Of a stretch of 64,000 nt of DNA, positions 36,744-42,822 are shown one piece after another (positions within the stretch are counted from its first letter, which is position 1; every line of letters starts with the position of its first letter). Source of the DNA: Chryseobacterium camelliae (GTDB lineage Bacteria; Bacteroidota; Bacteroidia; Flavobacteriales; Weeksellaceae); NCBI RefSeq assembly GCF_002770595.1, contig NZ_CP022986.1:4154001-4218000 (forward strand), written 5' to 3'. The notes beneath the pieces are model-generated. The model had not been told where the DNA came from and ran no database searches. It saw only the letters and a list, made by a program, of their open reading frames with translations. The position numbers and the translations under genes were made by a program.

Positions 36744-37065
36744 TACATTTAACTCTAAGATTTATTTTCTGCCAGAATCATAAGTGTCTTTAACCATAGG
36801 AGAATCCTGAAATTAACAAGGTTGAAACAGAACAACACATGAGTTGAAAAGCAAGAGGTTTTTCAATATGCAATCGTATGACAGATTAGGTATTAATTTC
36901 TGAAAGATTCTTATATAATTATGTATTAATCAAGATACATCATACAAATCAAAAGTATTTGTATCGTCGCATGTAGCTTAGCTCCTGTCATTTTAACAGC
37001 TTGTTAACGTATGCTTTGCATCATTCTTGTTTATGCAGAGGTACAACATCAAAAAATCAAAAATT
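36744..37065. other. 322 bp intergenic stretch without recognised feature
   Basis: AT-rich DNA between the methylase and the 37066 gene. No frame, hairpin with T tract or full promoter was found. Confidence 0.4.
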
Positions 37066-37443
37066 ATGTCAGAAAAAAAATTAGCAGGAATCTGGATGGA
37101 TAAAGAAAAGGCTATTGTCGTTAAAAACCATGATGCGCAGAATGCATTTAAATTCTTCCTGTGCAATCCCGTGAAAGCTGAGATACAGCATGGGAATTCC
37201 AGTGAAAATGCCGGTAATAATGCTGAAAAGACAAACAGAGCCAAATATTTTAAAGAAGTTGAGCATCTGCTGATCAATTCCCAGGAAGTGTACATTACCG
37301 GTCCAGGTACCATTCAGGAGGAGTTCAAAAATTACCTTCATGATACGGCTCAATTCAAGAATTTAACCGTTCATCTTGATACTGCGCAGCAGATGAGTGA
37401 TGAGCAGGTTCTTGAAAAGGTGAAGGAATATTTTAATGCTTAA
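37066..37443 (+). CDS. Small cytoplasmic protein, possibly eRF1-domain-like
   Basis: A 125-residue protein. Its pattern is K(L)AGIWMDKEKAIVV.. at the start, then a charged linker, AKYFKEVEHLLINSQEVYITGPGTIQEEFKNYL and a final strand-helix (NLTVHLDTAQQMSDEQVLEKVKEYF). This layout resembles bacterial proteins with a release-factor domain-3-like fold, which are of unknown function and may bind ribosomes or RNA; this is a guess from pattern only. ATG 37066 is preferred to TTG 37027. It has its own terminator. Confidence 0.6.
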   Translation: MSEKKLAGIWMDKEKAIVVKNHDAQNAFKFFLCNPVKAEIQHGNSSENAGNNAEKTNRAKYFKEVEHLLINSQEVYITGPGTIQEEFKNYLHDTAQFKNLTVHLDTAQQMSDEQVLEKVKEYFNA

Positions 37444-37519: not shown

Positions 37520-39892
37520 CTATTGCATCCTTTTCCGTTCTTCCTCACTCGCTGTTTTTCTGTTTCGGGGAGCAGATATGTTATTACCAAACCGGTATAG
37601 CAGACTAAGCGTAATGAATCTGCTTTCGCGCTGATAGAAAAAGCGGCTCTGCTGATCCCGGAAATGAATGCTCACCAAATTGTTGTTGGTATTAAAAATA
37701 TCGGTGATGGTAAATTTTAGTGTTCCGGCATTTTTCAGGACGTTCATCTTGACCCCTAAATCCACAAAGAAATTGGCACGCACCCGGTAAATACCCTGTA
37801 TTCCGGAACTGTTGTAGGTCCCATTGATTTCCGCTTTCAGTCCGGTTTTTTTATCTATCGAAAACGATTGGCTCATCGAGCCGGAGAATGAAATCATGTG
37901 ATTGTCATAACTGCCTGATAAATAATCTGATTTTTCTCGCTGGCGGTATATATCTGCTAAGATATTCACGTCCCACCAGGATGCAGGCTTTACCGGTGCC
38001 GATAAACGAATTCCCGCCATAGTGCTAAGCCCGAGGTTAGCCTGGGTGCCGTAATATCTTTTCGTATCATTATCCTGAATATTAATATTGGTGAACACAT
38101 CGCGGGTAGAGGTGTAGTATGCCGTAAGGTTATATTTCTTACTATAGGTATAGCCTGCTTCCAGACTATGGACAAATGCTGGCTGCAGAGCAGGGTTTCC
38201 TGCATAGACACTGTAAGGAGATAAGAAGCGTTTGGCGGGATTCAGCCGGTTGTATTCCGGACGTTCGATGCGATAGGCATAATTAAACTGAAACTCATGA
38301 TTTTCACAAGGTTTGTACTGAATGAATACCGTGGGAAACAGCTTGAAATAATTTTGTTCGTTCAGCAGGTTCAGGTTCTGTTCGTATCCTCTGGTACGGG
38401 TGTATTCGCCTCGCAGTCCACCCTGTAAACTCCATGACCCGAAATTACCCGATACACTAGTGTACGTGGAAGCTACCTTTTCACGGTAAGTAAAATGGTT
38501 GCGGTTGGCTTCTACTGCTTTCAGTTCAGCGCCGTCACGGTTGAAATAGTCAAAAATACTGATGCTTTCTGTACTGCTGTATTTGATTCCTGATGTTATT
38601 TCCAGTCCTTTCGCTGCTTTAAAATAATAATCTGCTTTTCCCGACATGATGCTGATTTCCTGAGAACTTGGAGTATAAATATGGAAAAAATCGGAAGTAA
38701 GGCTGCCATCGGGAAGCAAGGTAACATTATCTGTAAAAGGCCGGTTAACGTTTCGGAATGGAGCATAATCAAGATCAATATTCAGGCTGCTTTTAGCGGA
38801 ATCAAGTTTTAGGTTGTAATTAAGGTTAAAGGCATGCTGGCTTCCGAGTGTAGAAGCATAATTATCGGTATTCAGGGTAGAATCAAGCTTCATGGCAGGC
38901 GATGTGATTTCTGTAATGGCGGGGCTTTCAGAACTGCCTTTCCGGTTATTTCCTGTTATCAGGAAGCCCAGCACCTGGTTGTCAGAAACCTGGTAGTCAA
39001 CCCCCAAACGGTAATCATGGGTGTCTGAATCGTATACGGTACGGCTGAGACTGTTCCATAAAGAATTTCCGTAATTGATGAAAATATTATGGTCCTGAAT
39101 GGTTTTGCGATGGGTAAATCCGTAATTTCCATACATATTCCATTTATTTTTACGGTAAGTGAAGGTCGTATTTCCGGTATAGCCGGTATAGTTGCCCTGA
39201 TTGATTCCGCCACTCAGACTCAGGTTGAAACCTTGTTTCTTTGCTTTTTTGGTCACAATATTAACTACTGAAGCTCCTTCAGCATCAAACCTGGCTGGGG
39301 GATTGGAAAAAATCTCGACCTGGGAGACTTGGTCCGAAGGCATTCCCTGAAGGTAGGCGGCCAGATCATCTCCTGATAACTGCAGTGGCTTTCCGTCCAG
39401 GTAAATCCGGACATTTTTACGATTGGCGGTTACTGTATTGGCGGATGTGATCTGAATACCGGGCGCTTTTGTCAATGCTTCCCACGCGCTTCCGCCCGAA
39501 GCAATAATGCTGTTTTCCACATTAAAGCTGACACGGTCGATCTTTCTTTCAATAAGCGGCTTTCTTTTAGTCAGGGTTACTTCCTGTATTGTATGCTCAT
39601 TCCTGTGCATGGTAATCATCATGCTTTCTTTCGGAAGCTGTACTAACATTTCTACAGGCTGATAGTCCGGCAATGTTACGGTCAGGGTATAATTTCCGGC
39701 TTCCGGATAGCCCATACTAAAATTTCCGAGATCGGAAAAAACTGTAGCTACCTTTTTTTGATCTTTTGATAACGTAACCGTTGCGGCATCCAGCATCCGG
39801 CCGTTACCATCCTGTATAATTCCTTTTTGAAGGATTTGGGAATACATGAGTCCTGAAATAAAGATCAGGAGATATAAAATTGCATTTTTCAT
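37520..39892 (-). CDS. Outer membrane beta-barrel receptor (TonB-dependent receptor-like)
   Basis: A 790-residue protein with a signal peptide (MKNAILYLLIFISGLMYSQ), a carboxypeptidase-regulatory-like domain (about 20-95), a plug region (about 110-215, with RIYLDGKPLQLSGDD and IEIFSNPPARFDAEGASVVNIVTKK) and a long barrel. It belongs to the outer-membrane-beta-barrel family related to TonB-dependent receptors, though no classical TonB box is clear. It is divergent from a histidine kinase/response regulator pair. The ATG is four bases after a TAGGTTTG box, so the mRNA may be leaderless. The phased TTAA array starts 12 bp upstream of that box. Confidence 0.85.
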   Translation of the reverse strand: MKNAILYLLIFISGLMYSQILQKGIIQDGNGRMLDAATVTLSKDQKKVATVFSDLGNFSMGYPEAGNYTLTVTLPDYQPVEMLVQLPKESMMITMHRNEHTIQEVTLTKRKPLIERKIDRVSFNVENSIIASGGSAWEALTKAPGIQITSANTVTANRKNVRIYLDGKPLQLSGDDLAAYLQGMPSDQVSQVEIFSNPPARFDAEGASVVNIVTKKAKKQGFNLSLSGGINQGNYTGYTGNTTFTYRKNKWNMYGNYGFTHRKTIQDHNIFINYGNSLWNSLSRTVYDSDTHDYRLGVDYQVSDNQVLGFLITGNNRKGSSESPAITEITSPAMKLDSTLNTDNYASTLGSQHAFNLNYNLKLDSAKSSLNIDLDYAPFRNVNRPFTDNVTLLPDGSLTSDFFHIYTPSSQEISIMSGKADYYFKAAKGLEITSGIKYSSTESISIFDYFNRDGAELKAVEANRNHFTYREKVASTYTSVSGNFGSWSLQGGLRGEYTRTRGYEQNLNLLNEQNYFKLFPTVFIQYKPCENHEFQFNYAYRIERPEYNRLNPAKRFLSPYSVYAGNPALQPAFVHSLEAGYTYSKKYNLTAYYTSTRDVFTNINIQDNDTKRYYGTQANLGLSTMAGIRLSAPVKPASWWDVNILADIYRQREKSDYLSGSYDNHMISFSGSMSQSFSIDKKTGLKAEINGTYNSSGIQGIYRVRANFFVDLGVKMNVLKNAGTLKFTITDIFNTNNNLVSIHFRDQQSRFFYQRESRFITLSLLYRFGNNISAPRNRKTASEEERKRMQ

Positions 39893-39896
39893 AAGG

Positions 39897-39904
39897 CAAA
39901 CCTA
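39897..39904 (-). promoter_or_regulatory. -7 element (TAGGTTTG) of the receptor gene
   Basis: An exact TAnnTTTG match on the minus strand; the ATG (39892) follows after four bases. No TTTG -33 motif is present; the (G/A)TTAA array occupies that place. Confidence 0.6.
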
Positions 39905-39916
39905 CGTCAGTCTTAT

Positions 39917-39971
39917 GTTAAGGCCTGTTAAGCAGAGTTAAACAGCATTAACCAAGGTTAATTAAGGTTAA
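39917..39971. promoter_or_regulatory. Six (G/A)TTAA direct repeats at exact 10-bp spacing
   Basis: GTTAA or ATTAA begins at 39917, 39927, 39937, 39947, 39957 and 39967. Spacers are not conserved. Ten-bp phasing puts all units on one face of the helix, as for tandem sites of OmpR-family winged-helix regulators (for example Pho boxes or PmrA sites). The gene for such a regulator begins at 41476 and its kinase at 40023, right of the array. The array lies about -25 to -80 from the inferred receptor start. Confidence 0.8.
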
Positions 39972-40022
39972 ATCTTTACCGGCAGGTTGTTCAGTCTGGG
40001 TAATTATCATCAAATTAGCGGG

Positions 40023-41486
40023 ATGAAATGGCTCTCCAACCAATATGCTTATCCGCTTGTTATTTTCGCTATGATCGCTAGTATCGGTCTGCAGACTGCC
40101 TGGCTGATCCAGCTGTTTAATGCCCAGCAGGTGCAGGTGAAAAGAGACCTGGACCAGGCCGTGGCGGATGCCGCCCGCATGAGTGAATACCTCAGTGTAG
40201 CTCCGGGGCATGAAAATAACGAGAATTTTCGGAATTTTTTCCTCTCTCCGGAATGGCTACAGCTGAAACAAGCCTATTCCAGTATGCGGAACGTGGGAGT
40301 CAGCAGCCGGTTTGAGACAGAATTAAAAAACGACAGTACGCTGATTAATATAGAGTTAAAGATTGCCAATAAGAAATCCGGTTCGAGAAAAAGAAAGGTG
40401 ATTTCTGTTTTTGATGATGGCGAAACCCTTCAGTCTGTGATGGCGGCAGATAAAAAAGACCTGAAGCGGATGGACAGTCTGGTAGAAGTCGAATGCAGAA
40501 AGCAGAATATCAATGAAGATAGATTTTTCATCCTGTACAATTATAAGACCGGTCAGCCAGAATCTGAAAAAGACTGGAACAGAGCGAAGAATGCTGATTA
40601 TCAAAGCAGGCATTTCGGGTATAACCTTAATTTTTTTATCCATACTTATCAGCTGGTAGTTCCTTCTATCACTAAAACAGTTGTTTACCGGATGCGGTAT
40701 TACCTGATTTCTTCATTGCTGATGATCCTTCTCACCGGCCTTGTTTTCCGGTTTCTATTTAAAGTAATCCGCAGCCAGCGTTTGTATACTCAGGCGCGGC
40801 TTGCCTTTACCGGAAATATGACACACGAGCTGAAAACACCGGTTGCCGTCATTGAAGCTGCATTGGATTCCATTACGCGTTACCAGTTGACTAATGATCC
40901 GGGCCGCATGGAAAATTACCTGGCCATCAGTAAAAATGAAATTAACCGCCTGAACCTGATGATTGATAAAGTGCTGAGCCTGGAGCAGCTGGATAACGGC
41001 GAAATCAACCTTCGGCCTGAACTTTACGATGTGCAGCAGGGATTGGAAAATGTGGTGTCTTCGATGAGATTACGCAACAGAAGCGGCTCGGTACATATCG
41101 ACTACATCCCGTCTGAAGAACCGTGTTTTGTGGATGGGGATCCCGTACATCTTACGAATGTCTTTTATAATCTGATGGATAATGCCATTAAATACAGTGG
41201 ATCTGAAGTACTCATTCAGGTATTGTGCACATCTGTGGATGACCAGATCGTGGTAAAAGTTCAGGATAACGGTCCCGGGATTGCCAAGAGTTACCATGAG
41301 CGTATTTTCGAACGGTTTTTCCGGATTCCCGAACATAATGATATCCACACTGTAAAAGGAACCGGCCTCGGTCTGCATTATGTAAAAGAGATCATTGCTA
41401 TGCATGGAGGCAGCATTGAAGTTTTAGACCGGCCTGAAGGAGGAGCCGCTTTCATTATCCATTTACCCGCCTATCATGAAATATAA
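40023..41486 (+). CDS. Sensor histidine kinase
   Basis: A 487-residue kinase. Two transmembrane segments (about 11-31 and 226-247) flank a periplasmic domain of about 190 residues with no known sensor fold. The HisKA box is MTHELKTPV (His268), then the N box NLMDNAIKYS, G1 DNGPGI and G2 KGTGLGLHYV. ATG 40023 is preferred because it lies just before TM1. The 3' end overlaps the response regulator by 11 bp. Confidence 0.93.
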   Translation: MKWLSNQYAYPLVIFAMIASIGLQTAWLIQLFNAQQVQVKRDLDQAVADAARMSEYLSVAPGHENNENFRNFFLSPEWLQLKQAYSSMRNVGVSSRFETELKNDSTLINIELKIANKKSGSRKRKVISVFDDGETLQSVMAADKKDLKRMDSLVEVECRKQNINEDRFFILYNYKTGQPESEKDWNRAKNADYQSRHFGYNLNFFIHTYQLVVPSITKTVVYRMRYYLISSLLMILLTGLVFRFLFKVIRSQRLYTQARLAFTGNMTHELKTPVAVIEAALDSITRYQLTNDPGRMENYLAISKNEINRLNLMIDKVLSLEQLDNGEINLRPELYDVQQGLENVVSSMRLRNRSGSVHIDYIPSEEPCFVDGDPVHLTNVFYNLMDNAIKYSGSEVLIQVLCTSVDDQIVVKVQDNGPGIAKSYHERIFERFFRIPEHNDIHTVKGTGLGLHYVKEIIAMHGGSIEVLDRPEGGAAFIIHLPAYHEI

Positions 41487-42165
41487 AGTACTGTACGCCG
41501 AGGATGAAGCTACCCTGGCAGAGATTATCGGTGACGGCCTCAAAAGCAGCGGCTATGAGGTAGCACTCGCAACGGACGGACAAAAAGCTCTGGAGCTTTT
41601 CCGGTCCGTAATACCTGATATCTGCGTTCTCGATATCATGATGCCATTAAAGGATGGATACACTTTAGCAGAAGATATCCGCAAAATGGACAATAATGTC
41701 CCTATAATTTTTCTCAGTGCCAAATCTTTGGGCGATGATGTGGTGAAAGGATTCAGGAGCGGGGGAAACGATTACCTTAAAAAACCTTTTACGATGGGTG
41801 AGTTGCTGGTACGCATGGATGCTTTGCTCACCAGGTTCGGGAGTGCTCCGCCGCAGCATACTCCGTCTTCCAACCGGAAAACATTTGGCGGCTGTGAACT
41901 GAATACCGTTAGTCAGGAACTGAATACGCCAAAAGCAAGCTATAAAATTTCCTATAAAGAAACTGCTATTCTTGAAATGCTTTTAGAAAACAGGAATGAT
42001 TTGCTGTCCCGACAGACGGCACTGCTTAAAATCTGGGGTGATGATAGTTATTACAACACCAGAAGTATGGATGTCTTTATGTCGCACCTGCGGAAAATGC
42101 TCAGAGATGATCCGGAAGTAGAACTGATGAGCATTAGGGGAATAGGATATAAACTGATTTGCTGA
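41476..42165 (+). CDS. OmpR-family response regulator
   Basis: A 229-residue two-domain regulator. The receiver has the acidic pair in YAEDEATL, the phospho-acceptor Asp53 in VLDIMMPLKDG, the Thr/Ser in FLSAKS and the Lys in YLKKPF. The C-terminal winged helix shows the trans-reg-C pattern (SRQTALLKIWGDDSYYNTRSMDVFMSHLRKML .. IRGIGYKL). Its start lies within the kinase gene. The likely targets are the (G/A)TTAA array and the divergent receptor gene. Confidence 0.95.
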   Translation: MKYKVLYAEDEATLAEIIGDGLKSSGYEVALATDGQKALELFRSVIPDICVLDIMMPLKDGYTLAEDIRKMDNNVPIIFLSAKSLGDDVVKGFRSGGNDYLKKPFTMGELLVRMDALLTRFGSAPPQHTPSSNRKTFGGCELNTVSQELNTPKASYKISYKETAILEMLLENRNDLLSRQTALLKIWGDDSYYNTRSMDVFMSHLRKMLRDDPEVELMSIRGIGYKLIC

Positions 42166-42387: not shown

Positions 42388-42822
42388 ATGGAAATAAGCG
42401 TAACAGTAAAGCAGCTAGGGAGAAAGCACCCGCTTCTCCATGAAGAAAAAATGTCCATTTCCACTGAAGAAACACAGCTCTCGGTAGAAGAACTGATCCG
42501 CCTCATTGTCCTGCAGCAGGTAGAATCATTTAATACCCAATCTTTCGAACAGGAAGATGCTGATTATACCAAAGCTCCGCGGGAAGACTATTTAAACATT
42601 CTTACGGATACAGGGAAAGCAGGATTCGGAAGCATATATAACGAAAGGCGTGCTGATCCTGAAAAAGCCCGGGAAAATGCAATTCAGGCCTTTGAAGACG
42701 GTATGTATGCCATTTTTTACGGTGATGAAGAACTGCAGGATTTGAAACAGGAGATTGATCTGAGCCAGGGCCGTACCTTCGTTTTCATCCGGCTTACGTT
42801 TCTGGCAGGAAGCTACTGGTAA
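42388..42822 (+). CDS. Small partner protein upstream of DUF4132 gene
   Basis: A 144-residue cytoplasmic protein of unknown function. It starts with a beta-like segment (MEISVTVKQLGRKHPLL) and has an EELIRLIVLQQVESF helix and an acidic end with RADPEKARENAIQAFEDGMYAIFYGDEEL. Its last strand (GRTFVFIRLTFLAGSYW) is hydrophobic. It lies 23 bp before the DUF4132 gene, and the pair is probably one operon; a structural or regulatory link is inferred from that. Confidence 0.75.
   Translation: MEISVTVKQLGRKHPLLHEEKMSISTEETQLSVEELIRLIVLQQVESFNTQSFEQEDADYTKAPREDYLNILTDTGKAGFGSIYNERRADPEKARENAIQAFEDGMYAIFYGDEELQDLKQEIDLSQGRTFVFIRLTFLAGSYW

Follow-up and report, generated by a model that had tools for sequence, protein, structure and literature searches.

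The 64,000-nt window analysed here (Chryseobacterium camelliae contig NZ_CP022986.1, positions 4,154,001 to 4,218,000) carries an array of six (G/A)TTAA units at exact 10-bp steps, in the gap between an outer membrane receptor gene and a divergent pair of genes for a sensor histidine kinase and an OmpR-type response regulator. Comparison with related loci makes it probable that the array is a shared operator, at which the neighbouring regulator would act as head-to-tail dimers to control both its own operon and the receptor gene. Binding of the regulator to the array is very likely on sequence grounds, and for the receptor, activation is favoured over repression. The initial annotation of this DNA had predicted that the regulator activates the receptor and perhaps itself, a reading that as a whole is partly supported. 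The features of the locus, with positions in the window, are these:

37520-39892, minus strand: outer membrane receptor gene, 790 aa, the predicted divergent target of the array
39897-39904, minus strand: receptor -7 box TAGGTTTG, 4 nt before the start codon
39905-39916, no strand: 12-bp linker, fixed in length and drifting in sequence (mean column identity 0.71)
39917-39921, plus strand: unit 1, GTTAA, invariant in 11 six-unit loci
39927-39931, plus strand: unit 2, GTTAA, invariant in 11 six-unit loci
39937-39941, plus strand: unit 3, GTTAA, invariant in 11 six-unit loci
39947-39951, plus strand: unit 4, ATTAA, the degenerating unit (mean identity 0.82)
39957-39961, plus strand: unit 5, GTTAA, invariant in 11 six-unit loci
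39967-39971, plus strand: unit 6, GTTAA, invariant in 11 six-unit loci
40001-40008, plus strand: probable -7 box of the kinase operon, TAATTATC, 29 bp after unit 6
40023-41486, plus strand: sensor histidine kinase, 487 aa (HisKA 3e-11, HATPase_c 2.6e-27)
41476-42165, plus strand: OmpR-type response regulator, RprY-like, 229 aa, likely binder of the array

Domain scans confirmed the setting described in the initial annotation. The receptor contains an OMP_b-brl_3 domain, a TonB-receptor-like barrel and a CarboxypepD_reg-like N-terminal domain (PF14905 3e-92, PF00593 1.3e-14), and scores 310.3 bits for PF14905 (OMP_b-brl_3) against a gathering cut-off of 27. The regulator carries Response_reg (2.2e-25) and Trans_reg_C (2.5e-16) domains. 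Its best NCBIfam model is RprY (NF051850), the regulator of the RprXY system of Bacteroides/Porphyromonas, yet the score of 223.3 bits is under the curated cut-off of 370 which places the protein outside the curated RprY family. The kinase was taken to start at the ATG at 40023 (MKWLSN, conserved), which replaces the TTG at 39987 given in the list of open reading frames (ORFs). A gap of 130 bp separates the receptor and kinase genes and holds the whole array. The units, three GTTAA, one ATTAA and two GTTAA, extend from 39917 to 39971, with starts every 10 bp up to 39967 as had been noted. In 20,000 dinucleotide shuffles of the gap, one gave a phased chain of three units and none a longer one, against six in the real sequence, and the longest phased chain in 60 shuffles of the whole window did not exceed two. 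Tandem half-sites on the same strand, about one helical turn apart and adjacent to a co-conserved OmpR-type regulator, correspond to the direct-repeat operators of the OmpR/PhoB type.

Conservation of the array within the genus was assessed in 173 Chryseobacterium genomes, using a five-GTTAA pattern with unit 4 left free and its reversed form as a control. The pattern was found with zero mismatches in ten genomes and with two in one (G080); the reversed control gave 0 of 173. A profile of the sensor part of the kinase recovered eleven genomes, namely the ten with the array and, in addition, G115, where four units are present (locus L206). The array is thus present in all eleven kinase-positive genomes (ten six-unit, one four-unit), and the loose match in G080 was the only one in the 162 kinase-negative genomes. 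Ten array loci were examined: gene order is the same in all of them, with orthologous receptor, kinase and regulator genes, and the divergent receptor orthologue was found in 9/9 of the other array genomes with 71-83% identity, two of the nine being cut by the end of the retrieved sequence. Over eleven six-unit loci, column identity was 1.0 in the receptor -7 box and in five units, 0.82 in unit 4 (variants ATTAA, ATGAA, ATAAA, CCGAA, ATCAC and ATCAG), 0.71 in the linker and 0.74 in the 33 bases that follow the array. In L185, a paralogous receptor-kinase locus, the array has four units, unit 1 being CTTAA.

To look beyond the genus, a genome collection was scanned with the kinase alignment, which left 78 loci, 20 of which (L049-L068) match the kinase over its length. 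Seven of these come from the genus or its family, six of them already counted and one (L050) new, with six units. The other 13 (L056-L068) come from Pedobacter, Mucilaginibacter and Dyadobacter, apart from two records with a name at family or phylum level only. All 13 have the array, eleven in a four-unit and two (L066, L067) in a three-unit form; the four-unit count is lenient and admits xTTAT, a frequent form of the first unit, and in L066 and L067 a degenerate first position is followed by three intact units. The regulator gene follows the kinase in 10/10 genus loci and in 11/13 loci of a further comparison, and tblastn finds it in the two missed there (L060, L068) as well as in L067 and L206. 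Outside the genus the GTTAA half-site loosens to RTTAA, with no or almost no variation in TTA, and throughout the orthologous family the 10-bp step is held while the spacers drift. Lack of conservation among orthologous loci had been set as grounds for abandoning the initial proposal; the array is instead present in all kinase-positive loci, and alignment in related genomes shows the 10-bp phase and the 12 bp to the -7 box kept among drifting spacers, as had been anticipated.

In a kinase tree of 26 rows, with a midpoint root used for drawing only, a single branch (support 98/98) separates the six-unit loci from the rest, and the four-to-six character required one change in 97% of bootstrap trees. 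Four-unit loci, including one from the genus, surround the six-unit ones, and the arrays of the two outlying rows are of three or four units; a single expansion from four to six units would thus be the simplest reading. Four units are the common form and six a lineage-specific one. Gap lengths of six- and four-unit loci differ by 20-21 bp, equal to two units or one dimer's worth. The patchy presence of the system (11/173) and the mixing on the tree of genera of different orders suggest that the receptor-operator-sensor cassette moves between lineages.

Direct repeats bound by OmpR, PhoB and ArcA make this kind of element already known, and they indicate how the array could be occupied. OmpR half-sites are degenerate, and that of ArcA is TGTTAA-like. 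OmpR forms a tandem dimer on two 10-bp half-sites, 20 bp per dimer (PMC7380067), and has several upstream boxes at ompF/ompC (PMC3798270); ArcA sites in Escherichia coli consist of two to five direct repeats, predominantly 11 bp centre-to-centre, which are bound cooperatively and vary in copy number by site (PMC3798270). Given such half-sites and such cooperative repeats, six 10-bp units fit three dimers: the neighbouring regulator would occupy the GTTAA units as head-to-tail dimers, three of them on one helix face, and the array would drive two divergent promoters devoid of good core elements of their own. Occupancy would presumably depend on phosphorylation of the regulator and on a signal.

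Comparison with the same systems shows what is particular here. The 10-bp step, described as unusual in the initial annotation, is not, since OmpR uses 10-bp half-sites (PMC7380067); for CenR, a distance of 10 bp between half-site starts is stated, although the printed TGA-N8-TGA counts to 11 (PMC9275681). In contrast to those of OmpR, the GTTAA half-sites here hardly vary, and they are placed between two divergent promoters. The ArcA box shares direct repeats of variable copy number, but it is degenerate, with at most five repeats mostly 11 bp apart (PMC3798270), whereas here six near-invariant units, more than the two to five reported for ArcA, are spaced by 10 bp in the family (10 and 11 bp mixed in the related loci described below) and lie between two divergent promoters. 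A further case is PhoP of Riemerella anatipestifer, from the same bacterial family (Weeksellaceae): the core of its motif, TTTAACA, reads TGTTAAA on the other strand, and PhoP binds its own operon and promoters of TonB receptor and outer membrane barrel genes, with GLPGLI genes among the direct targets (PMC9603813). The likeness is one of motif and targets; R. anatipestifer PhoP differs in having 583 peaks genome-wide, and the accessible part of that paper mentions no tandem array or step (PMC9603813). The six-unit form and the two-sided geometry look new, and a two-sided ruler geometry recurring beside RprY-like systems was not found in the open-licence literature searched.

On the receptor side, the initial annotation had reported a good -7 box, no -33 box and a nearest repeat beginning 12 bp upstream. 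The absence of a -33 element stands: no TTG ending 14-24 bp upstream of the box was found in any of 25 family loci. The distance stands as well, being exactly 12 bp to unit 1 here and 12 bp in 23/25 family loci; in L066 and L067 the first intact unit lies 22 bp from the box, in the same register. The quality of the box does not. TAnnTTTG occurs in 25/25 family loci, always with G at one or both of its free positions (-10 or -9), and TAGGTTTG, invariant across 11 six-unit loci, has GG there. In Flavobacterium johnsoniae promoters, G is almost never found at the free positions (PMC6847099). Owing to this disfavoured G the receptor box is weak and not fully good. With neither a -33 TTG nor a favourable -7 box, the promoter seems to need help, for which reason activation is favoured: units 1-3 extend over about -29 to -49, the region of a -33 element, and the array would make up for the missing element 12 bp from the weak box. 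PhoB at Pho boxes acts in this manner (class II), its operator lying about 10-12 bp from the -10 element in place of the upstream core. The likeness proposed initially holds for position, as the array replaces the upstream core element at about 10 bp from the -10/-7 element, and not for the orientation of the half-sites, which on the receptor side is opposite to the gene; the half-site is also a different one, and activation here is a prediction.

The receptor box lies 4 or 5 nt from the ATG in the family loci; where the distance is 5 nt (three loci), the array has moved with the box relative to the ATG, and the 12 bp between them are kept. Mapped sigma-A -7 boxes lie at -12 to -5 (PMC9723704); with the receptor box so placed, the A of the ATG would be +1 and the receptor mRNA is predicted to be leaderless, a class that made up 5.5% of the mRNAs examined in Flavobacterium psychrophilum (PMC9723704).

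To place the kinase side in a wider context, 60 hand-picked loci from genomes of the phylum were surveyed, with regulators 37-48% identical to this one; RprY-like here denotes such similarity and not a match to the RprY model. Fifty-nine were taken from among the matches listed (top rows, then further down, skipping near-copies of one genus), the survey includes the paralogue of the same genome, and G541, already known to carry the array, was added separately. Six loci without a kinase upstream in the same direction were dropped, leaving 54, with kinase starts taken from the open frame. Because many of the loci belong to related genera, nominal probabilities would exaggerate the significance and are not used. 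In 42 of the 54, the best four-unit GTTAA array of the 7.2-8-kb locus fell in the operon-start window, which is about 5% of the locus; the operon-start array scored higher than the rest of the locus in 40 cases, equal in 4 and lower in 10. All 26 arrays scoring at least 17 of 20 were on the kinase strand, and their steps were a mixture of 10 and 11 bp. Two or more exact GTTAA in phase (one- or two-turn steps) preceded the kinase in 46/54 loci, and of these 32 had a perfect TAnnTTTG 27-29 bp after the last unit, against three at other offsets up to 79 and six scattered occurrences of the reversed motif. Without G541 the counts were 41/53 for operon-start position, 25/25 for polarity and 31/45 for the -7 box.

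These loci guided the reading of the kinase promoter. TAATTATC, with two mismatches to TAnnTTTG and within the conserved block AATTATSATSAAATTAGC, is read as the -7 box since it occupies the place of the perfect boxes in those 32 loci. An alternative placement, in which the conserved block would be a -7 box with its end 4 nt from the ATG, was rejected, and the comparison with the 46 related loci led to 40001-40008. The last unit is 50-51 bp from the kinase ATG in 24/25 family loci (83 in L067 with the chosen start). If the -7 box is at -12 to -5, this unit occupies about -45 to -41 in the promoter of the kinase operon, a usual position for an activator. An array upstream of the -7 box at the distance of related systems would amount to autoregulation. 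What had been a "perhaps" in the initial annotation is thereby raised to a main predicted function, array polarity and the 27-29 bp to the kinase-side -7 box being the most widely conserved traits.

The divergent side of the surveyed loci was more variable. The nearest upstream ORF was divergent in 25 of the 26 strongest loci, one lying 1,085 bp away. Scanning of ten divergent proteins identified six GLPGLI proteins (one sub-cut-off) and one each with DUF1573, PDZ, a type IX secretion system sorting tail and no assignment. In L263 and L265 the array faces a DUF1573-type gene (L263 scanned, L265 alike by eye) and not a GLPGLI or receptor gene. Boxes with at most one mismatch were found on this side 16 times at 22 bp, five at 9, four at 23-24 and three at 12; the reversed control gave a cluster of seven at 25 bp, which makes the divergent side weaker evidence than the kinase side.

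A link between operator and regulator came from the recognition helix. The relevant segment has D in 52 of the 54 regulators (RSMDV, RSLDV, RNLDV and similar) and H in two (RSLHVF), those of L231 (G417) and L246 (G425), both from one genus. These same two loci have TTATC arrays at the kinase start, scoring 19 and 18 of 20 when the other 52 reach at most 15, with 11-10-10 steps and a perfect -7 box 28 (L231) and 27 bp (L246) after the last unit. Retention of the geometry with letters that change along with the helix is what would be expected if the neighbouring regulator binds; this strengthens the shared-operator explanation and slightly lowers its rivals. The proposal that the array is the target of the neighbouring regulator is borne out insofar as the array tracks the pair, recurs beside its relatives and changes letters with the helix; binding itself stays a prediction. 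At the TTATC locus of G417, the divergent gene looks by eye like an outer membrane receptor (L128); G531 (L131), with a receptor-like divergent gene by eye, has no TTATC array (12 of 20).

Several observations weigh against the shared operator as proposed. PhoB-type activators lie in the direction of the gene, and the GTTAA half-sites are read on the kinase strand, opposite to the receptor. On the kinase side, the -7 box has one or two mismatches in 21/24 family loci and three in the other three. Eight of the 54 related loci are without two phased GTTAA, two of these being the TTATC loci, which, coming from one genus, count as one event and not two; six loci, including the paralogue of the same genome, have neither a GTTAA nor a TTATC array despite an ordinary D-type helix. 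Finally, expression of an outer membrane beta-barrel gene that has a PhoP site is raised in a phoP mutant of R. anatipestifer (PMC9603813), which points to repression there.

That last result leads to the strongest alternative, possible but rather unlikely, in which operator and binder are the same and the regulator represses the receptor by blocking polymerase near the -7 box, over the -33 region. The array does overlap the expected position of polymerase at the receptor promoter and its polarity follows the kinase side, as this explanation would have it, in addition to the R. anatipestifer precedent (PMC9603813). However, a promoter lacking the -33 TTG (25/25) and having a disfavoured G in its -7 box (25/25) suggests a need for help and not for a brake, and occlusion would not require the rigid 12-bp distance. 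Control by another OmpR-type or global regulator, with the neighbouring pair as only one of its targets, is improbable: the genome encodes 11 Trans_reg_C proteins, and GTTAA-like half-sites are used by other regulators such as R. anatipestifer PhoP (PMC9603813), but within the genus the array accompanies this pair alone, the rest of the genome has almost no exact three-unit sites (in G180 they occur at this locus only) and the operator letters change with the helix of the neighbouring regulator. Phased TTAA steps that bend or soften DNA would need the strict 10-bp phase too; we regard such a structural role as very improbable, since most units begin with G or A, the strongest related arrays share one polarity (26/26), and the motif goes with a single regulator subfamily and alters where the helix of the regulator does. 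Nor are phased TTAA steps known as a classical A-tract bend. Chance or neutral tandem-repeat slippage, for which near-identical units and gaps differing by 20-21 bp might speak, is refuted by the shuffles and by conservation of the core across Chryseobacterium, Pedobacter/Mucilaginibacter and Dyadobacter loci, and only the 5-bp core repeats while the spacers do not.

With the shared operator retained as the preferred explanation, the survey makes it on balance likely that a promoter code of this kind is common in Bacteroidota: RprY-like operons would be driven by tandem half-sites, in most cases GTTAA, with the last unit 27-29 bp from TAnnTTTG, a divergent gene at 12 or 22 bp, half-site letters that track the recognition helix at unchanged distances, and dosage adjusted through 20-bp dimer sites. 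If so, a sensor operon and its target, often a gene for an exported or outer membrane protein, would be locked to one ruler-like operator, and Chryseobacterium would be a case of an added whole dimer site (20 bp). Bacteroidota promoters (TAnnTTTG) are unlike the E. coli type, and few mapped response-regulator operators were found for the phylum in the literature searched; a readable half-site at fixed distances from the core promoter would make direct targets of many uncharacterised sensor pairs predictable from sequence. With the TTATC loci, the assignment of helix residues to the bases that they read could be tested on natural variants, and with the four-to-six change the effect of dimer number on promoter output.

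Around the locus, the adjoining ORFs at 42388-42822 and 37027-37443 had no Pfam or NCBIfam match at E 0.001, a plasmid search with the gap sequence gave no match, and an AlphaFold2 model of the kinase sensor domain (mean pLDDT 50.9) was too poor for a fold search. The exact three-unit pattern has one further site in the 4.38-Mb genome, at C1:1562411, within a four-unit CTTAA/GTTAA array with 10-bp steps (L001, G000:C1:1562401-1562435) between genes that look by eye ECF-sigma-like and FecR-like. This sole other site is absent in the close relatives G067 and G180; it was treated as chance or private, and a wider regulon in this genome was rejected.

Among 296 genomes of the phylum, the exact four-unit 10-bp pattern matched in 8 and its control in 7, several matches being simple tandem repeats, and an 11-10-11 pattern with at most two mismatches matched in 7 and its control in 1; because controls match too, whole-genome pattern counts alone are no evidence. 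Three-unit matches elsewhere in 18 genomes were mostly AT-rich, with reversed-control matches in 10 of the 18, and some recur between relatives (L172 and L194; L176, L190 and L191). Four GTTAA at 10-bp steps in L182 (G588, 1501-1535) lie between a different kinase and a divergent gene that is thioredoxin-like by eye, so the operator also occurs outside the receptor family. In L069, L074 and L129, distant kinases are preceded by four TGTTAA with 11-10-11 steps; one of these loci is on a contig labelled Chlorobiota, and the code may reach beyond Bacteroidota.

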